The notes below the pieces were generated by a model that saw only the letters and a list, made by a program, of their open reading frames with translations, made no database searches and was not told where the DNA came from. Shown here in pieces: positions 23,198 through 35,216 of a stretch of DNA of 37,809 nucleotides. The position numbers were made by a program, and so were the translations under genes. The stretch is taken from NCBI GenBank assembly GCA_030527905.1, contig JAUMZX010000002.1:1-37809 (forward strand). Reading direction: 5' to 3'. Positions within the stretch are counted from its first letter, which is position 1; the number at the start of each line of letters is the position of its first letter. This stretch comes from Cardiobacteriaceae bacterium (GTDB taxonomy: Bacteria > Pseudomonadota > Gammaproteobacteria > Cardiobacteriales > Cardiobacteriaceae).

Positions 23198-23462
23198 ACG
23201 GTTTTCAAGTGTACAGAAAAGAAAATGAAAGTTTGGGAAAGTGTTTTTTTGTGGCATGAGAATATTCGAACAGTGAATTGATTATTATGAAATTATCAAG
23301 GATATTAGGGTTTTAATTGTGTGTTGATAATTAAGTTGGTTTAGAGGTGTGAATTTATAAAGCCTTGTAAAACAACGTTGGTGTGTTTTTGTGTTCGATT
23401 TTTCACACGAGTGTGTTAATTAAGTACAAAATTGCCTCAGGGCTGTGCATAAGGAGTTTGTG
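23198..23462 (+). promoter_or_regulatory. AT-rich divergent regulatory region upstream of the glycogen operon
   Basis: This 265-base stretch between argS and malQ-glgB is much richer in A and T than its surroundings and has no gene. A TTGATT (23278-23283) and GATATT (23301-23306) pair with a 17-base spacer is one promoter candidate, leaving a leader of about 150 bases. Half-site-like words TGTGA and TCACA occur (near 23348 and 23402), but not at the spacing of a proper CRP site. The promoter position is uncertain. Confidence 0.3.
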
Positions 23463-26400
23463 ATGGGATCACATGCCAATATAGAGCAAATGAAATTGCT
23501 TGGTATTGAAACGGATTACTTTGCCGCTGATGGTAGTTTTGTGCGTGTATCTAACGAAGTGTTGTCAGCACTTGCTTCAATTTTAACAGCGCCTGGTCAG
23601 CGCGTTGATTCTGATGATTTTTATGATGAGGTCTTTACCGTCACGCCTGAAATCGTGACTTTGTTGCCTGTTGGTGAATTGTTATCAAAATATGCAGCGG
23701 CCTATTTGTTGGACGAAATGGGACAGAACCTTCCTTATTCTTTTGTGATGATGGAAGGAGGGCGAATTGAGTTACCACCATTACCGCCAGGATATTACAC
23801 ACTAGAATTGCACGGCACGCATCAGATGCGACGTTGTTTGGTTATTGTTGCGCCTAAAACGGTTTATCAACCAGAGTCGTTACGGCGTGGTGAGCGTTTG
23901 AGTGGCATGAATGTGCAGTTATACAGCTTACGTTCAGCGCATAACTGGGGGATCGGCGATTTTGGTGATTTGCGTCGATTGGCAGAAGAGTTTGTTGTTG
24001 ATGGTATCGATTTTATCGGTATCAATCCGTTACATGCGCTATTTACGACGCAGCCTAATTGGGCAAGTCCTTATAGTCCGTCATCAAGGCGTTGGCTGAA
24101 TCCTATTTATCTTGATGTGGCGAGTATGGCGTTGTTTAAAACCTCGCCAGCAGCCCAAGCATGGTTTGCCGACAAAGATACACAGACAAAGCTCATGGCC
24201 TTGCGAGACAGCAAGTGGGTCGATTATGCGCAGGTTTTGCAGTTCAAAATGCGTGCCTTACAGTTGATCTATCGTGATTTTGAAACACTGGAAGAGCATA
24301 CGTCTTCACGAGAAAACTTTGATGCTTTTGTCCATAGAGAGGGAAGGGATCTCCATCTCTATGCAACTTTTGAAGCTTTGGATCATTTTTTCTATTCACA
24401 AAATGCCTCTATTCCTTTTAGTGAAGACAATGTTGGCTGGTTCGGTTGGCCAGAAGCTTTTCGCTATCCGGAAAGTGCAGAAGTTCGAGCTTTTATTGCG
24501 TCGCATACGGCTGATATTCGTTTTTATATGTGGCTGCAATGGCTTTTGTCAGAACAATTGGAAGGTTTGGTCCAACTTTGTTCTGAATTGGGCATGTGTC
24601 TTGGATTGTACGGTGATTTGGCGGTTGGCGTTTCTCGGGGCGGTGCGGATACTTGGATGAATCGCAATATGTATTGTTTGCAGGTTTCCGTTGGTGCGCC
24701 ACCCGATGAGCTAGGACCTGCAGGACAGAACTGGAATTTGCCGCCTTTGCATCCTCAACGTTTGAAGCGTAGCGGTTATCAAGTTTTTATTCGTATGTTG
24801 CGTGCCAATATGCAGATTTATGGATTGTTGCGTATTGATCATGTGATGGCGTTGTATCGTTTGTGGTGGATTGCTTACGGAAATAGCGCAGGATTTGGTG
24901 CTTATGTACGTTATCCGCTGGCCGATTTGATGGCAATTCTCTCTTTGGAAAGCCACCGTGAGCGTTGTGTGGTTATTGGTGAGGATTTGGGGATTGTTCC
25001 AGATGAAATGCGCAAGGCATTACATGATTATGGTGTTTATTCTTATGGCGTGATGTATTTCAATCAGGAATACGGACGCTATCTCATGCCTGAAGATTAC
25101 CACGAACAAGCGCTTGCCGTGGTCAGTACGCATGATCTTGCTCCTCTGTTTGGTTTTTGGACAGGTAAAGATATTGAAACGATGAATGAACTGGGCGTTT
25201 TTGAGACTTCAGAGCAGTATCGTCGATTGCAGATTCAGCGTGAGCAACGTAAACGGCAGATTGTTGCTGCTTTAGCACAGGCCGATGTTCTTGATATTGA
25301 CCATGACTGTACGGTATTGGATCAGGACGTGGTACTTGCCTTACACCGTTTTGTGGCGATGAGTCGTAGCAAGTTGTTTGCGATTCAGCCAGAAAACTTA
25401 TTGCCAGTTTGCGACTCTTTTAATATTCCGGGGATTGCTAGTGCTTATCCCAATTGGCGTTATCGCTTGCCAGAGGATATTTTTAGCGATAAGGCTTCTT
25501 TTATGCACGAGATGTTGCGCAAAATTGTTGCAACTCGTGCGCATATCCGAGAGCAGCGCCCACCGGTTGCTATTCCGGCTACTATCGCAACCCTACTAGG
25601 AGGTGTTGAAGTGACTTCGGTTGATAAGTATTTAATCGATCAATTGTTCTCAGGGACGTTTGCCGATCCTTTTTCCTATTTAGGACCACATGATAATGGC
25701 GGTGGTGTTGTGGTACGCGTGTTACTGCCGGGGGCAGATTCGGTTCGTATTTTGGATAACGATGGTAAAACGTTATTGGCTGAAATGAGCGTTTTGGATG
25801 AGCGCGGCTTTTTTATTGCGACACTAGATACAAGTGCACAGATTCATTATGTGCTCGAAGTCCAGTACGGCAACCAGACGATAATCATAGAAGACCCTTA
25901 TCGCTTTACCTCCAGTTTGCATGATTTTGATAGTTGGTTGCTGGCTGAAGGAACGCATTTGCGTCCGTATGAAAAGTTTGGCGCGCATTTGACAACACTT
26001 GATAGCGTTGCGGGTGTGAGTTTTAGTGTGTGGGCTCCAAATGCACGTCGGGTATCTGTCGTTGGCGATTTTAATTTTTGGGATGGTCGTCGTCATGTGA
26101 TGCGCTTCCACCCGCAAAGCGGAATTTGGGATATTTTTATTCCAGATGTTAAAGAAAATACGCTATATAAGTATGAAATTCTGGATGCAAATGGCAACAT
26201 TCGTCTGAAATCAGATCCTTATACCTTTGCTGCACAGCTACGACCAGAAACCGCTTCGGTGGTGACGCGGTTACCAGAGAAACAACCGTATAATCCGGAA
26301 CGCATCGCTGCTAATGGAATTGATGCGCCTATCAGTATTTATGAAGTTCATCTCGGTTCTTGGCGACGGAATCCGGAAAATAATTTCTGGTTAACGTATA

Positions 26401-27806
26401 AGCAGCTAGGTGATGAGCTTATTCGCTACGTTAAAGATATGGGATTTACACATATTGAGTTGTTGCCGATATCTGAATTTCCGTTTGATGGTTCTTGGGG
26501 ATACCAGCCGCTGGGTTTATACGCAGCTACGAGCCGCTTTGGGAGTCCGCAGGGGTTGTGTGATTTCATTCGCAAGGCGCACGATGCTGGTATTTATGTC
26601 CTATTAGATTGGGTTGTTGGGCACTTTCCTACGGATGAATATGGACTGGTCAGGTTTGACGGGTCGCCGCTTTATGAGCATGCTGATCCGCGCGAAGGCT
26701 ATCATCAGGACTGGAATACGCTTATTTATAATTTCGGTCGCCACGAAGTACGCAATTTCTTAACCGGTAATGCTCTGTATTGGATTGAGCATTATGGTAT
26801 AGATGGTTTGCGGGTTGATGCGGTCGCTTCCATGATTTATCGCGATTATTCTCGTAAAGAAGGAGAATGGATACCGAACCAATACGGCGGTCGGGAAAAT
26901 CTCGAAGCGATTAATTTCTTACAACGTACCAATGCGATTTTGCAAAATGAACAGCGCGGTGCGGTGTCAATAGCAGAAGAAAGTACAGCTTTTACTGGTG
27001 TCAGTCATCCGACTGAGCAAGGCGGTCTTGGATTCCAGTTTAAATGGAACATGGGTTGGATGAATGATACGTTACGTTATATGCGCGAGGATCCAGTTAA
27101 TCGCAAATATCATCATAATCTGCTTACTTTTGGCATGATTTATCAATATAGCGAACATTTTGTGTTACCACTTTCTCATGATGAGGTGGTACATGGGAAA
27201 GGTTCTCTGCTCTCTAAAATGCCGGGAGATTGCTGGCAGCAGTTTGCCAATTTACGTGCTTACTATGGCTATATGTGGGGTTATCCGGGTAAAAAATTAC
27301 TCTTTATGGGCAATGAATTTGCTCAAGGCAGGGAATGGAACTACCAAGAAAGTCTGGATTGGTTCTTGTTGCAACCAGAGCAAGGAGGATGGCACGAGGG
27401 CGTACAACGTTGGGTTCGCGACTTGAATCATGTGTACCGTGATTATCCGGCATTGTGGAGGAGAGATTGTCAGCCTGAAGGTTTTGAATGGCTGGTGGTT
27501 GATGATGCGGAACAGTCGGTTGTTGCCTTTGCTCGACATGATGGCGAGGGAAACCCTGTGGTTATTGTGAGCAACTTTACACCGGTGCCACGCGAAAATT
27601 ATCGCATTGGCGTTAGTCAGGCAGGGCGTTACCGCGAGATTCTCAATTCTGATGATGTTGATTACAACGGTAGTGGTATGACGGGTGGAAAGGTAATCCA
27701 CACCGACGATATCGGTAGTCATGGTAAAGCGCAATCGCTCAATCTCACGCTTCCACCGCTTGCGACTATTTTCCTAGCGCTAGATAAGACGGGAGGCAAC
27801 GTTTGA
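23463..27806 (+). CDS. MalQ-GlgB fusion: 4-alpha-glucanotransferase joined to glycogen branching enzyme
   Basis: A 1447-residue fusion of two full-length enzymes. Residues 1 to about 716 are amylomaltase (GH77): [18 protein letters not shown], the nucleophile Asp459 in RIDHVMAL, Glu507 in GEDLGIV and Asp558 in STHDLAP. Residues from 717 are branching enzyme (GH13): two N-terminal beta domains ([32 protein letters not shown]), the nucleophile Asp1119 in [10 protein letters not shown], Glu1172 in SIAEEST and Asp1240 in LSHDEVVHG. The 53- and 68-residue spacings equal those of E. coli GlgB. MalQ rearranges maltodextrins; GlgB makes alpha-1,6 branches. I chose ATG at 23463 because AAGGAG lies six bases before it; GTG at 23445 is less likely. 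The junction has an internal start signal. First gene of the glycogen operon, overlapping glgX by one base. Confidence 0.93.
25598..25613 (+). promoter_or_regulatory. glgB: internal Shine-Dalgarno and GTG start at the MalQ/GlgB junction
   Basis: AGGAGG at 25598-25603 is followed seven bases later by GTG (25611-25613) in the reading frame of the fusion. Initiation there would give a 731-residue GlgB beginning (M)[20 protein letters not shown], which aligns with the natural GlgB N-terminus and length (728 in E. coli). Stops in the other two frames lie at 25597-25599 and 25607-25609. It looks like the intact start of a once separate glgB. Confidence 0.6.
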
Positions 27807-29830
27807 TGAGACAACGATCACCCCTTCCGCTTTGCCATCGCGGTTGTAATTATCCGCTAGGCAGCACCCTTACCCATATAGAGGGTAAGGCTGGGGTGAA
27901 TTTTGCCTTGATGAGTCGCTATGCCAACAAGGTTGAGCTCTGTCTTTTTGATGTTGAGGGTCGTGAGACGCGGATTCATGTTACGAACCGCAGCAATGAT
28001 GTGTGGCATGTTTTTGTCGTCGGCATAGAAGCGGGACAACGTTATGGTTGGCGTGTTGATGGCGACAATACGGCAGCAGGTAGCTGTTTCAATCCCAATA
28101 AACTCCTTCTTGATCCTTATGCAAAAGTGGTAGATGGACTGCCGCAGTATCGTAATGATGAAGAACTGGCGTTATTCCAGCATACCGATTCTCGTGATAA
28201 TGCTCATGTGGCGGCAAAAAGCGTTGTTGTCGCTCCTTCAGATTTTCAGTGGGAAGGTGACACGGCACCACGAACGTTGTGGCGCGATACGGTGATATAT
28301 GAAGCGCATGTTAAAGGCTTTAGTCAGCTCAATCCTGATGTTCCGAAGGATATTACTGGTAGTTTTGCAGGAATGGCTCATGAGGCGAGTATTCGTCATC
28401 TTAAAGCGCTTGGAATTACCGCAGTAGAACTGTTGCCCGTAAGCCAGCATCTAGACGAAGTACATCTGCAACGGCGCGGCTTAAGGAACTATTGGGGCTA
28501 CAACGTTTTTGCGCATTATGCTGTCGATATACGTTACGGTACTCCAAATGATTTCAAGCAGCTCGTGAAAACGCTGCACCGTGAGGGTATAGAGGTTATT
28601 CTGGATGTCGTATTCAATCACGGCGCAGAGCAAGATATTTATGGACCTATGCTCTGTCAGCGTGGCATTGACAACCGCTATTACTATTGGCTTGATGAGC
28701 ATGGTAACTATATTAATGATACTGGCTGTGGCAACGCGTTTAATTTATCGCAGCCGGCTGTGATGCAGTGGGCAATGGATTGTTTGCGTTATTGGGTGCA
28801 GGAATATCATGTTGATGGTTTCCGATTTGACTTGGCCGCTACGTTAGGCCGGATGCCTGCTTTCTCTTCGAATGCGCCGTTCTTTGCTGCCATTCAACAA
28901 GATCCCATTCTAGCTGGTTGCAAAATGATTGCTGAACCGTGGGATATTGGAATGGATGGTTATCAGCTTGGACATTTTTCACAACGTTTTTCCGAATGGA
29001 ATGGCCGTTTTCGAGACGATATGCGCGGTTTCTGGTTATGGGAAAACGGCTGGTTAGGCGCGTTGGCGCAGCGTTTTTGTGGTAGTGATGATATTTTCCG
29101 TAATAACTGGCGTGCGCCACATAGTGCAATTAACCTGATTACAGCACACGATGGTTTTACTTTACGGGATTTGGTTAGCTACGGTTATAAACATAATGAA
29201 GCGAATGGCGAAGATAACCGTGATGGCGAAAACCATAATTATTCATGGAATCACGGTGTTGAAGGAAATAGCGATAATGAAACAATCAATACGGCACGCG
29301 AACACAGTCAAAAAGCATTGCTAGCTTGTTTGTTGCTAGCTCATGGCGTGCCGATGCTTCTTGCGGGCGATGAGTTAAATCAGAGTCAGCGCGGGAACAA
29401 TAATAGCTATTGTCAAGATAACGAAATTACTTGGCTGGATTGGGAATCTGGCAAAACAACGAGTTTGATGACCTACATTCAATCATTGACCGCGCAGAGG
29501 CGTCGCATGGCGCAAGATGGTATTTATGACGGTTGGTGGCATCATGACAATGCCCGTTGGTTCAATGCAAGCGGTGAAGCTATGCAAGAGAACGATTGGC
29601 ACAATGAGGAAAGTAAAGCGCTCGCCTTGTTATTACAAGAGAAATATCTGGTTCTATTTAATGCGAACAGAAGTGCACAGACCTTTGTATTACCAGATGG
29701 TGGCTGGCAGCCACTGTTTGGTGAAGGATTATCTGTTACTTCTTGTGAGGCTAGGCTTGCTCATTTGGGCGTGTGTGTTTTAACTCGAAACAGCGCGGAG
29801 AAAAAAACGTTCATCGGAGAAACGATATGA
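27806..29830 (+). CDS. glgX: glycogen debranching enzyme GlgX
   Basis: A 674-residue isoamylase-type GH13 enzyme that removes the short branches left by glycogen phosphorylase. Seen: an N-terminal CBM48-like domain (GVNFALMSRYANKVELCLFD), VIYEAHVKGFSQLNPDVP, the WGYNVFAHYAVD strand, the nucleophile Asp in DGFRFDLAATLG at about residue 343, the acid Glu in MIAEPWDIG, and the third Asp in TAHDGFTLRDLVSY. The ATG shares one base with the GlgB stop (TGATG), with GGAGG nine bases upstream; TTG three bases earlier is less likely. It overlaps glgC by four bases, so branching, debranching and ADP-glucose synthesis are coupled in translation. Confidence 0.94.
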   Translation: MRQRSPLPLCHRGCNYPLGSTLTHIEGKAGVNFALMSRYANKVELCLFDVEGRETRIHVTNRSNDVWHVFVVGIEAGQRYGWRVDGDNTAAGSCFNPNKLLLDPYAKVVDGLPQYRNDEELALFQHTDSRDNAHVAAKSVVVAPSDFQWEGDTAPRTLWRDTVIYEAHVKGFSQLNPDVPKDITGSFAGMAHEASIRHLKALGITAVELLPVSQHLDEVHLQRRGLRNYWGYNVFAHYAVDIRYGTPNDFKQLVKTLHREGIEVILDVVFNHGAEQDIYGPMLCQRGIDNRYYYWLDEHGNYINDTGCGNAFNLSQPAVMQWAMDCLRYWVQEYHVDGFRFDLAATLGRMPAFSSNAPFFAAIQQDPILAGCKMIAEPWDIGMDGYQLGHFSQRFSEWNGRFRDDMRGFWLWENGWLGALAQRFCGSDDIFRNNWRAPHSAINLITAHDGFTLRDLVSYGYKHNEANGEDNRDGENHNYSWNHGVEGNSDNETINTAREHSQKALLACLLLAHGVPMLLAGDELNQSQRGNNNSYCQDNEITWLDWESGKTTSLMTYIQSLTAQRRRMAQDGIYDGWWHHDNARWFNASGEAMQENDWHNEESKALALLLQEKYLVLFNANRSAQTFVLPDGGWQPLFGEGLSVTSCEARLAHLGVCVLTRNSAEKKTFIGETI

Positions 29831-31125
29831 ACATAAAAGAAAACCCCTTACCCTCAACCGAAGAAATCGCTAAGGACACCTTGGTTTTGATTTTGTCAGG
29901 AGGACGAGGTTCACGGCTCTACGAGCTGACCGATCAACGCGCCAAACCTGCCGTTTATTTCGGTGGTGGGCATCGTATTATCGATTTTGCGCTTTCTAAC
30001 TGTGTTAACTCCGGATTATTGAAAATCGGCGTCATCACGCAATATGAAGCGCATTCTCTGCTACGTCATTTGCAGCATGGTTGGTCATTCTTACCGCGTG
30101 AGAGAGGACAGTTTGTTGACATGCTACCCGCACGGCAACAGTTGAACGATCAAACATGGTATCGCGGCACTGCTGACGCGGTTTGGCAGAATGTGCATAT
30201 CATGAAAGATCACTATAAGCCGCGCTATGTGCTTATCCTTGCTGGAGACCATATTTACAAAATGGATTACATGCAGATGATTCGCGATCATGTAACCAGT
30301 GGTGCGAAAGCAACTGTAGGTTGTATTGAAGTACCACGCGAACAGGCAACCGCATTCGGTGTGATGGCAGTTAATGAGAAGCTGAAAGTTAAAGCTTTTG
30401 TTGAAAAGCCAGCTGATCCTCCGCCTATGCCTGATCGCCCAGGTTCATCGCTCGCTTCGATGGGTATCTATGTTTTCGATGCCGATTATCTCTATGAAGT
30501 CTTAGAACGCGAGGCAACCAGCGCAGATACTTCACACGATTTTGGTAATGACGTTATCCCTGCTGCGGTACGAGAAGGCGTGCTTTATGCGCATCCGTTT
30601 GAAAAATCAAGTAAAGGTCGCAATACACAAGGCACAATTTATTGGCGTGATGTGGGAACGATTGATAGCTATTGGAGTGCGAATATTGATTTGGTCAGCG
30701 AACATCCGCAATTGGATATGTTTGATGATAATTGGCCTATCCGAACTGTGCCAAAACAAACCGCACCGACAAAATTCTTCTACAAACACAGCCATACCCG
30801 CACGATTGATAATTCGTTGATTGGCGGCAGTGGCGTGATTACGGATGCAGAAATCAGTAACTCGGTCATTTTTGATCACGTCAATGTTGATGAAGGTTCA
30901 CATATCGAATATGCCGTTGTATTACCACAAGTCCGAGTGGGAAAAAATTGCGTTCTGCGACGCTGCATCATTGATCGTAATTGTGTTATTCCCGATGGCA
31001 TGCAGATTGGAGTTGATGCTGAGCTGGATAAAAAACGGTTTCGTGTCAGTCAGGGCGGTGTTGTTCTTGTCACCAAAGCAATGTTGAAAGTGATTGCTGA
31101 AAGGCAAGAAAAACCAGACTCTTGA
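29827..31125 (+). CDS. glgC: glucose-1-phosphate adenylyltransferase (ADP-glucose pyrophosphorylase)
   Basis: A 432-residue enzyme that makes ADP-glucose from ATP and glucose 1-phosphate, the committed step of bacterial glycogen synthesis. Seen: the nucleotide loop LILSGGRGSRLYELTDQRAK at about residue 20, GGGHRIIDFALSNCVNSG, WYRGTADAVWQN, LILAGDHIYKMDY, and VEKPADPP, then SMGIYVFDADYLYEVL and the C-terminal left-handed helix with hexapeptides (SNSVIFDHVNV, RRCIIDRNCVI). The start at 29827 overlaps the glgX stop (ATGA) with GGAGA upstream; longer in-frame extensions into glgX are not supported. Allosteric control by sugar phosphates and AMP is usual for the family. Confidence 0.96.
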   Translation: MNIKENPLPSTEEIAKDTLVLILSGGRGSRLYELTDQRAKPAVYFGGGHRIIDFALSNCVNSGLLKIGVITQYEAHSLLRHLQHGWSFLPRERGQFVDMLPARQQLNDQTWYRGTADAVWQNVHIMKDHYKPRYVLILAGDHIYKMDYMQMIRDHVTSGAKATVGCIEVPREQATAFGVMAVNEKLKVKAFVEKPADPPPMPDRPGSSLASMGIYVFDADYLYEVLEREATSADTSHDFGNDVIPAAVREGVLYAHPFEKSSKGRNTQGTIYWRDVGTIDSYWSANIDLVSEHPQLDMFDDNWPIRTVPKQTAPTKFFYKHSHTRTIDNSLIGGSGVITDAEISNSVIFDHVNVDEGSHIEYAVVLPQVRVGKNCVLRRCIIDRNCVIPDGMQIGVDAELDKKRFRVSQGGVVLVTKAMLKVIAERQEKPDS

Positions 31126-31180: not shown

Positions 31181-32620
31181 ATGAAGATACTAAAGATTCT
31201 ACATGTATGTTCCGAATTATTTCCACTTGTGAAAACAGGTGGACTGGCGGATGTTATGGGAGCGCTGCCTTTGGCGCAGCGGACGTCTGATATGGACGTT
31301 CGTGTTGTCTTACCCCTCTATCCACAAGTTGCGGAAAAAATTGGTGAAACAGGGCACGTTGGTTATTACCATACCTTCGCCGGAGATATTGAGCTGCGCT
31401 ATACAGAATATCGTGGGGTTGGTATCTATCTTATTGATGCGCCACATCTTTATCAGCGGGAAGGTAATCCATATCATGATCAGCACTATGCTGATTATGG
31501 TGATAATTACTTGCGCTTTGCACTGCTCGGTTGGGTGGGCGCTTCTCTAGCTGCTGGCGCAGATAGTTGGTGGAAACCGGACTTGTTACATGGGCATGAC
31601 TGGCAGGCAGGGCTTGCTTTTGCCTATCTGCGTGCTTGGGATATCCCGATAAAAACCGTTTTCACTATCCATAACCTTGCCTATGCAGGTATTTTCAGTG
31701 CACATCATCTGACTGAATTAGGGTTACCTTCCTATATGTTCGGAACCTACGGTTTAGAATTTTATGGACAAATATCCTACCTTAAAGCAGGTCTTTATTA
31801 CGCTGATCACATTACAACCGTGAGTCCTAGCTATGCGCGAGAAATTATGGAACCCGAACATGGTTATGGCTTCCATGGTTTATTACAGGAGCGCGCGGCG
31901 CAAGGGCGATTGAGTGGCATTTTGAATGGCGTGGATGATAATGTCTGGAATCCGGAGAGTGATGTCAATATTAGCAAACCGTATAAGCAAAGCTATATGC
32001 AAGGTAAGCGCGTGAATAAGCACCTTTTGCAACAAGCTTTCAATTTACCCACGGACGACAGCATTCCTTTGCTTGTTATGATTACACGTCTTACGGAGCA
32101 AAAAGGCGCGGATATACTTTTAGGTGCAGCGGAAAGTCTATTATCACGACCCTTGCAATTGGCTATTCTGGGAACAGGATCGCCCGATTTGGAGCATGCT
32201 TTCCGTGATTTAGCGGGGCGTCATCCCGATAAAGTTGGTGTACGGATTACTTATAACGAGGGTTTATCGCACCAGATGATTGCAGGTGGAGATGTTATTC
32301 TCGTACCTAGCCGCTTTGAACCTTGCGGTCTAACGCAGCTTTATGGTTTGAAGTACGGCACGCTTCCGCTAGTGAGAGCTACCGGTGGACTTGCTGATAC
32401 TGTCGTTGATACGACAAAAGAAACGGTGAAAGCGCGTCGTGCGACAGGTTTCGTTTTCTACGAAGCAGCACCAGATGCCTTGTTGCAGGCGGCGGGAAGG
32501 ATGTTGGAAAGCTGGAAAAACACCAAACAGTGGGCGGAAATCCGTTCTAATGCAATGAATGAAGATTTCAGTTGGCATAAAGCGGCACAGTCTTATCAAG
32601 AACTGTATCAACGTCTTTAG
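31181..32620 (+). CDS. glgA: glycogen synthase GlgA (ADP-glucose type)
   Basis: A 479-residue GT5 glycosyltransferase that extends alpha-1,4-glucan from ADP-glucose. Seen: LKILHVCSELFPLVKTGGLADVMGALP with the KTGGL ADP-glucose motif at about residue 20, LLHGHDWQAGLAFAYL, TIHNLAYAGIF, and in the second Rossmann half MITRLTEQKGADILL and VPSRFEPCGLTQLYGLKYGT, with the Glu and the STGGL-like ATGGLADTV. Length equals that of E. coli GlgA. AGGAGA lies eight bases before the ATG. It follows glgC by 55 bases without a terminator. Confidence 0.97.
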   Translation: MKILKILHVCSELFPLVKTGGLADVMGALPLAQRTSDMDVRVVLPLYPQVAEKIGETGHVGYYHTFAGDIELRYTEYRGVGIYLIDAPHLYQREGNPYHDQHYADYGDNYLRFALLGWVGASLAAGADSWWKPDLLHGHDWQAGLAFAYLRAWDIPIKTVFTIHNLAYAGIFSAHHLTELGLPSYMFGTYGLEFYGQISYLKAGLYYADHITTVSPSYAREIMEPEHGYGFHGLLQERAAQGRLSGILNGVDDNVWNPESDVNISKPYKQSYMQGKRVNKHLLQQAFNLPTDDSIPLLVMITRLTEQKGADILLGAAESLLSRPLQLAILGTGSPDLEHAFRDLAGRHPDKVGVRITYNEGLSHQMIAGGDVILVPSRFEPCGLTQLYGLKYGTLPLVRATGGLADTVVDTTKETVKARRATGFVFYEAAPDALLQAAGRMLESWKNTKQWAEIRSNAMNEDFSWHKAAQSYQELYQRL

Positions 32621-32738: not shown

Positions 32739-35216
32739 ATGCCTAATAGTCACAAGTATGAGTTTCGTGCGCCAGGAAGCGATGTAAAAAGTCTAAAAGA
32801 ATCGCTTGTTTATAAATTGATTTTCAGTCTAGGTTGTCCGCCTGCGGAAGCAACAAAAACCAATTGGTTGAATGCTGCTTTACTCGTTGTTCGAGACCTT
32901 GCAACTGAACGTTGGTTACAAACGACGCGTCATTTCAGACGAGAAAAGCTGAGACGGGTGTATTACCTATCTATGGAATTCTTGATGGGGCGCGCCCTGT
33001 CGAATGCATTGATTGCTGAAGATGTTTATGAATCCTTGCGGGAAGCGATGGCAGAGCTTGGGCAAGATCTGAATGAGATTATCGCGGAGGAGGGCGATCC
33101 GGGTTTAGGTAACGGGGGACTTGGTCGTCTTGCCGCATGCTTTATGGATAGTCTTGCGACGTTACGTATTCCTGCGATGGGTTATGGCATTCGCTATGAG
33201 TACGGTATGTTTCGCCAAGAAATAGAAAATGGCAAACAGATTGAAAAACCTGACACTTGGACAGAGCAAGATATTGCTTGGCAATTCAGACGCCCAAGTA
33301 AGCACTATACGATTCGCTATGGCGGCAATGTTCATTATCAAGGAGAGCAATGTATCTGGAATAATAGCGAGCAAATTACAGCGTTAGCCTATGACCAAAT
33401 TATTCCCGGTTACGATACTGACGCGGCCAATACGTTGCGTTTGTGGTCTGCGCACGCTGGTAATATGTTTAACCTTGGGGATTTCAATAAAGGCGATTAT
33501 TTTGCTGCTATGGAACAGCAGAATACGTCAGAGAACGTTTCGCGTGTGCTTTATCCAGATGATTCGACCACGGTAGGTCGCGAACTGCGGCTACGCCAAG
33601 AATATTTCCTGACCTCGGCATCGGTGCAAGATATTGTCTTTCGTCATCTAAAAGAAAATGCCGACCTCAGTAATCTCGTGGATACGGTTGCGATTCATTT
33701 GAACGACACGCACCCTGTGCTTGCGATTCCAGAATTGATGCGCATTCTAATTGATGAATACGGCATAAAATGGGACGATGCTTGGGCCACCTGTGGCAAA
33801 ATTTTCTCTTACACCAATCATACTTTGATGGGCGAAGCGCTTGAGACATGGCCGGTTGAAATGATGGGACGTATTTTGCCACGGCATTTACAAATAATTT
33901 TTGAGATTAACGAACACTTCTTAGTGGGCTTGCGTAAGCGCGGTTTTGATGATGACTTTATTCGTCGAGTTTCGTTGATTGATGAAGATGGCGGACGTAA
34001 AGTGCGAATGGCATGGTTGGCCGTTATTGGTTCTCATAAAATCAATGGAGTGGCCAAGATACACTCTGACCTCATGGTTAAATCCATCTTTGCTGATTTT
34101 GCACGACTCTATCCAGAACGTTTCACTAACGTGACGAATGGTGTTACACCGCGACGCTGGATTGCATTGGCAAACCGTGGTTTGGCGCAACAGATAGACC
34201 GTCGTATTGGTACAGGTTGGCGTAGCCATTTGGATGAGCTTTCTCGCTTGAATGGTTTACAGGATGACGCGACATTCCGTAAAGAGATTGCTAGCGTGAA
34301 ATTGGAAAATAAACGGCGTCTTGCTGAATGGATTCGGAACGAGATGGGAATCAAGGTTAATCCTGAAGCGCTGTTTGATGTGCAAATTAAACGGATTCAT
34401 GAATATAAGCGGCAGCTGCTCAATGTGTTGCATATTGTGAGCCGCTATAACCAGATTCTTAAAAATCCTAATGCTAATTGGGTTCCTCGGGTATTTATTT
34501 TTGCGGGTAAAGCTGCAAGTGCTTATTATGCTGCGAAGAAAATTATTCATCTTATCAATGATGTTGCCAAAGTCATCAATAATGATGGCCGTATTCGTGA
34601 TCTGATTAAAGTTGTTTTTATTCCAAATTATGGGGTTAGCCTCGCTCAACTTATTATTCCAGCAGCGGATCTATCAGAGCAGATTTCGTTGGCAGGAACC
34701 GAGGCGTCTGGTACCAGCAATATGAAATTCGCATTAAATGGTGCGCTTACTATTGGAACGCTGGATGGTGCTAATGTCGAAATCCTTAATGCAGTCGGTA
34801 AAGATAATATTTTTATTTTTGGTAATACGGTTGAGCAAGTCGAAGCGTTGCGGCAGCGTGGTTATTCACCTTTACTCTATTTGGAACAAGATTCTGAACT
34901 GCATGAAACAGTGATTCAAATTACCTCTGGCGTCTTCTCACCAGAAGAACCGAGTCGTTATCACGAGAACCTGCATATTTTTAGTGATTATTATCAGGTT
35001 CTAGCAGATTTCCGTAGCTATGTAGAAGCGCAGGATCAAGCGGACAGACGTTATCGCAATCAAGACGCTTGGGTAAAATCTGCAATTACTAATATTGCCA
35101 ATATGGGTTATTTTTCTTCTGATCGCTCAATTGAGGATTATGCGCGTGATATTTGGCATATCAAAGCGTTACCAGAAGTTAGAAGAGATGCTGCTGAGAG
35201 TATTGGAGACGAGTAA
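32739..35216 (+). CDS. glgP: glycogen phosphorylase
   Basis: An 825-residue GT35 PLP enzyme that releases glucose 1-phosphate from glycogen ends. Seen: [17 protein letters not shown] at about residue 75, [51 protein letters not shown], the PLP region [20 protein letters not shown] and [20 protein letters not shown] with the Schiff-base lysine, then TLDGANVEI. It begins after a GGAG ribosome site. Length matches E. coli GlgP and MalP; the operon with glgX, glgC and glgA favours a role on glycogen. A strong terminator follows. Confidence 0.97.

Follow-up and report, generated by a model that had tools for sequence, protein, structure and literature searches.

A fused malQ-glgB gene with a conserved inner glgB start, a probable dual-start gene in Cardiobacteriaceae and two further families

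Dual-start genes are well known in bacteria, with IF2/infB, clpB and cheA among them. SpaO and HrcQ also belong to this class (PMC13059759, PMC8553256). Fusion of malQ with glgB has been described as well: in Neisseria sicca/'suica', the two genes are joined into one large protein (Chem Rev 2024, PMC11046441). In the passage concerned, that account gives the fusion alone, in one sentence, with nothing there about an inner start, a second product or the distribution of the gene. Here we analyse a fused malQ-glgB gene in a window of 37,809 nt (the whole stretch of DNA under study) from a Cardiobacteriaceae bacterium. As far as the passage on Neisseria goes, the domain order is alike in both, MalQ being first and GlgB last. 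The accessible text of the open-licence literature yielded no report of an inner start in this fusion, and the literature on the branching enzyme of Neisseria denitrificans and on Cardiobacterium glycogen gave nothing further. We propose, with a probability of roughly 0.8 and from comparison of sequences, that the window gene is a dual-start gene, one message of which would give both the MalQ-GlgB fusion protein and free GlgB, and that selection keeps it so.

The fused gene and its junction

Translation of positions 23463-27806 (+ strand) gave a single frame of 1447 residues plus a stop, running from the ATG at 23463 to the TGA at 27804-27806, with MalQ first and GlgB second. Judged from the bases at the 5' end of the frame (23445-23462, +), the malQ ribosome site is TAAGGAG (23450-23456) and the ATG at 23463 is the likely start, although an extra in-frame GTG is present upstream, at 23445. 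The MalQ part (23463-25610, +; 716 codons) is a 4-alpha-glucanotransferase of family GH77. Its Pfam domain was found at residues 151-672 (PF02446; 395 bits versus a cut-off of 25), and it matches the NCBIfam model TIGR00217 with 572.8 bits, the curated cut-off being 205.7. This part missed the narrower NCBIfam equivalog PRK11052.1 (733 bits, cut-off 806); by these matches the window protein is a MalQ, though one outside the narrow model. The motifs that carry the MalQ catalytic Asp-Glu-Asp are present, at D459, E507 and D558, putative positions that we take to be the catalytic residues. The GlgB part (25611-27806, +; 731 codons) is a glycogen branching enzyme of family GH13, with GlgB_N (PF22019, residues 724-813), CBM48 (PF02922, 838-920), catalytic and C-terminal domains (Alpha-amylase_C, PF02806, 1343-1440), and it scores 966 bits against TIGR01515, well over the cut-off of 464. 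Counted from the GTG described below, its catalytic Asp-Glu-Asp are D403, E456 and D524; their spacing of 53/68 is that of E. coli. The preliminary description had claimed two complete enzymes in one frame, which the open translation and the Pfam and NCBIfam domains bear out, and a 731-residue GlgB with the E. coli catalytic spacing, which also holds.

The two enzymes meet in a variable linker region (25551-25613, +). On the MalQ side the final helix runs to about residue 697, and the first helix of GlgB begins at about residue 719. The predicted structure of a junction fragment has confident stretches on both sides of a low-confidence linker, with low pLDDT at residues 697-708, and was used solely for the position of the linker, its overall pLDDT being 67.5. 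In this model, residues 697-708 are probably flexible. The linker carries the internal Shine-Dalgarno AGGAGGTG (25598-25605, +), the strongest in-frame site of the whole gene, and the internal glgB start codon GTG (25611-25613, +), which is in frame and placed 7 nt after AGGAGG. GGAGG is kept in two congeners. Among the 126 in-frame start codons of the gene, the junction is the top combination of Shine-Dalgarno and start. Moreover, when 14 fused genes were pooled as background, an equally strong internal start was found elsewhere in 0 of 1250 start codons (18,815 codons), and the chance of such a site in the linker was P ~0.002 in the same pooled background. An AGGAGG ribosome site and a GTG exactly at the joint had been reported before; both are there, except that the match extends over 8 nt and not 6. 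Stops in both other frames, given earlier as 25597-25599 and 25607-25609, were seen again, as TAG 25597 and TGA 25612 in the +1 frame and TGA 25607 in the +2 frame. An internal promoter was rejected: the region from 23060 to the joint gave no + strand sigma-70-like site, and the numbers found were no higher than in shuffles.

The window also holds the rest of a glycogen operon on the + strand: glgX (27806-29830), glgC (29773-31125), glgA (31181-32620) and glgP (32739-35216). The glgX start overlaps the glgB stop (TGATG) and has GGGAGG upstream (27790-27810), suggesting that the remaining genes of the operon are coupled translationally in the usual manner.

Distribution and ancestry of the fusion

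The fusion was found in 10/12 genomes of the window's family, that is, in every gene-bearing one, the remaining two being without both genes. Family members with the open fused frame include near-complete genomes of 1-2 contigs. No genome of the rest of the window's order carries it, and in a class-wide scan of 369 evenly drawn genomes the fusion was confined to the window's family. Wider searches detected it in two further families. The search of the Pasteurellaceae gave four Gallibacterium genomes, two of them named (Gallibacterium salpingitidis and genomosp. 3) and the two others from the same search and next to them in the trees. The search of the order of Chitinibacter reached a Neisseriaceae-like family, that of genome G771, in which 25/83 genomes have the fusion; we infer that this family is the Neisseriaceae, because of the malQ-glgB fusion that the 2024 review gives for Neisseria (PMC11046441). 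Note that two Gallibacterium proteins (L028 and L029) carry some tens of extra residues, rich in Lys and Thr, after the GlgB C-terminal domain, a tail that is absent from the window protein.

In other Pasteurellaceae, malQ and glgB are neighbouring but separate genes, or glgB has no adjoining malQ. In the separate pairs, the malQ stop touches or overlaps the ribosome site of glgB, for example TAAGGAGtaaatATG. Ten Haemophilus-type loci have both genes in one frame with a single TAA between them, and this TAA is part of the glgB Shine-Dalgarno. The comparison of the junction in relatives that the preliminary description had proposed locates the separate genes in Haemophilus and its relatives, with the malQ stop at the glgB ribosome site.

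The MalQ trees placed all fused genes in one clade (100/99), which the window gene shares with the Neisseriaceae-like fused genes and to which neither the separate Haemophilus genes nor those of one Neisseriaceae-like genome belong. Since the fused MalQ form a single clade, several independent fusions are disfavoured. The main nesting of the GlgB trees agrees with that of MalQ: Gallibacterium adjoins the window genus, and the Neisseriaceae-like genes lie inside the window's family. The simplest account of these trees is one fusion event, after which the fused gene would have moved as a unit between families. By the same MalQ and GlgB trees, the window fusion would be of the same lineage as the Neisseria fusion, a reading that hinges on our naming of the G771 family. 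A recent one-base fusion was ruled out by the MalQ tree and by the presence of the fusion throughout the family. The recent origin through a small indel that the preliminary description had implied is thus discarded, the fusion being long established, and its remark that a one-base indel would separate the genes is formally true but misdescribes the present gene. The single MalQ clade implies, therefore, that the inner site has lasted through old divergence.

The GlgB trees also contain lineages that have GlgB only. A stand-alone Pasteurellaceae GlgB clade stands beside the fused genus g7 (98/96 to 100/98), and the GlgB-only gene L227 of a Neisseriaceae-like genome stands beside a fused GlgB (100/100). 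The AU test against monophyly of the fused GlgB gave p 0.016 with 14 fused rows and p ~2e-36 with a larger set, in which L227 breaks the fused clade too. GlgB-only lineages nested in the fused clade are most easily read, on these trees, as later loss of MalQ; a slim chance is left that GlgB was fused a second time, to a MalQ from the one fused MalQ clade. In the GlgB-only descendants, GlgB begins where the inner start lies, and these descendants would fit a working inner start. L225, from another Neisseriaceae-like genome, has a MalQ half frameshifted near residue 557, with the GlgB half and the inner start intact. MalQ was seemingly lost in different ways in L227 (genome G993) and L225 (genome G981), by deletion and by a frameshift in the MalQ half, respectively, with GlgB kept from the inner start in both. 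Twelve stand-alone Pasteurellaceae GlgB are nested near g7, many of them with AAGGAGA before their ATG; the position of this clade beside g7 suggests a product of fission.

Conservation of the inner start and other readings of the junction

The linkers of the 39 fused genes from the three families differ in both length and sequence. Yet 38 of these genes carry ATG or GTG in frame at the N-terminus of GlgB, the exception being L011. The Neisseriaceae-like rows have an invariant inner ATG (Met; 26/26), flanked by residues that vary. A Shine-Dalgarno match of at least 4 nt precedes 35/39 junction starts (a count that takes in L225 and leaves out L011), compared to 183/2570 (7.1%) of the control in-frame ATG/GTG codons. 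Furthermore, in nearly every species folding around the start is weaker than over most of the gene, and A-rich codons follow the inner start in many fused genes. The inner site is weak in two Gallibacterium genes, and the Neisseriaceae-like L220 has the inner ATG without a Shine-Dalgarno. L011 (genome G004), a member of the window's family, is fused but lacks a good inner start, which makes it a natural negative control. An old fusion with neither Shine-Dalgarno nor start conserved was what the preliminary description had set against its own reading; the fusion is old, yet both are conserved.

The codons at the junction distinguish the bases from the residues that they encode. The junction reads GGAGG in each of the three species of the window genus, and its Gly is GGA in all of them, the sole such column of 95 shared Gly columns; GGA accounts for 4/121 Gly codons in L003 (3%) and 11/122 in L004, and the three species agree at only 28-56% of their fourfold codons. 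For the Glu that precedes the inner Met, 20/21 Neisseriaceae-like genes use GAG, the highest share among 72 Glu columns (mean 21%), and where this Glu is replaced by Gly the bases are still GGAG. Compared across these genes, the choice of codons at the junction shows that nucleotides, not residues, are held by selection. With residues fixed and codons random, the site was significant for the window genus and for one g7 genome, L005 (P ~0.03). In the other single genomes tested this way the site was not significant alone; the case for the inner start therefore rests on comparison across species.

Could the inner Shine-Dalgarno and start be unused relics of a once separate glgB? The fused junction descends from a site such as that of the separate relatives, whose malQ stop adjoins or overlaps the glgB ribosome site, and L011 has lost the inner site and kept the fusion, as would be possible with a relic. 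However, in a fusion that is old and of single origin, and despite turnover at synonymous positions, the inner site persists, with differing codons and residues yielding the same GGAG/GAGG bases, so that we consider this explanation unlikely. It is more doubtful still that the Shine-Dalgarno-like bases serve as a translational pause between domains, the Met or Val being a linker residue. The site does lie exactly between two folded domains in the predicted structure, but a pause needs no start codon, and ATG or GTG is present in 38/39 genes at start-like spacing, with A-rich codons after it in many, while background ATG/GTG codons seldom have such sites. The invariance of the Met in the 26 Neisseriaceae-like rows would agree with a third explanation, in which it is the protein that requires the Met and the preceding Glu or Gly, the bases merely following. 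We judge this very improbable: beside the codon use of these same genes, the junction codons (GAG in 20/21; GGA in the three window-genus species) are extreme, and elsewhere the linker varies both in its residues and in its length. On the codon bias we reject a protein-level reason for the inner Met. Finally, the window assembly is a fragmented metagenome bin (263 contigs, 86% completeness), but a sequencing or assembly error can be dismissed for the family, as two further families and nine other genomes of this one, some of them in 1-2 contigs, have the same open frame. For the same reason it is very unlikely that a base is missing at the joint, a possible flaw named in the preliminary description: the complete or near-complete genomes of relatives show this frame.

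A proposed dual-start mechanism and its relation to known systems

The preliminary description had suggested that the cell may make both a bifunctional protein and free GlgB from one message, and the conservation of the start, the synonymous selection on the Shine-Dalgarno and the nested GlgB-only lineages all support this dual-start reading. Ribosomes starting at 23463 would make the 1447-residue protein, with MalQ and GlgB tethered through a short flexible linker, and other ribosomes would bind AGGAGGTG at 25598 and start at the GTG at 25611, giving a free GlgB of 731 residues. MalQ would then exist solely within the fusion and GlgB in both forms, and we propose that the branching enzyme is therefore in excess over the glucanotransferase. 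The fusion would have been born once, from adjacent malQ and glgB genes, and then travelled between families. We further propose that purifying selection keeps the old glgB ribosome site because the fusion alone would give the cell too little GlgB. The presence of two products, their ratio and its benefit are what we deduce; the sequences themselves show the fusion, the conservation of start and Shine-Dalgarno in their bases, and that the MalQ half arose once.

MalQ lengthens and shuffles linear glucans, and long linear chains are the substrate of GlgB. On this general knowledge of the enzymes, tethering may hand chains from MalQ to GlgB, and extra free GlgB would release branching from a fixed ratio. 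Taken as a whole, we regard it as reasonably probable that a fusion of single origin spread horizontally through three families with its working start kept, that the gene permanently makes the tethered protein plus excess GlgB, and that the start later let some lineages shed MalQ.

Gene fusions are usually read as one protein, with a fixed 1:1 ratio of their parts. The codon-level conservation described here indicates that a fusion can long keep the second gene's own start, uncoupling the dose of the two enzymes. If this is true, annotation as a single bifunctional protein would miss a product. Codon bias at the joint is a test that would serve for other fusions too. The conservation also has a bearing on the way in which fusions break up, since with a working inner start the loss of the first half would be harmless to the second.

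Compared with known systems, Haemophilus and its relatives have the same malQ-glgB order as the window, and their malQ stop adjoins or overlaps the glgB ribosome site, as in TAAGGAGtaaatATG; unlike the window, they make two proteins and their MalQ is free. GlgX-MalQ (PRK14510) and TreS-maltokinase resemble the window protein in joining enzymes of neighbouring pathways in one chain, but the partners differ. With the known dual-start genes the window gene has in common one frame, an inner translation start and a shorter protein that shares the C-terminal part, and it has the in-frame inner start with a Shine-Dalgarno and the nucleotide-level conservation of that class. It differs from them in that the shorter product predicted here is the whole of a second enzyme, keeps the ancestral N-terminus and comes from inside a gene fusion. 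The fusion itself is already known, and so is the class of dual-start genes, of which a dual-start fusion under codon-level selection across families is a variant.
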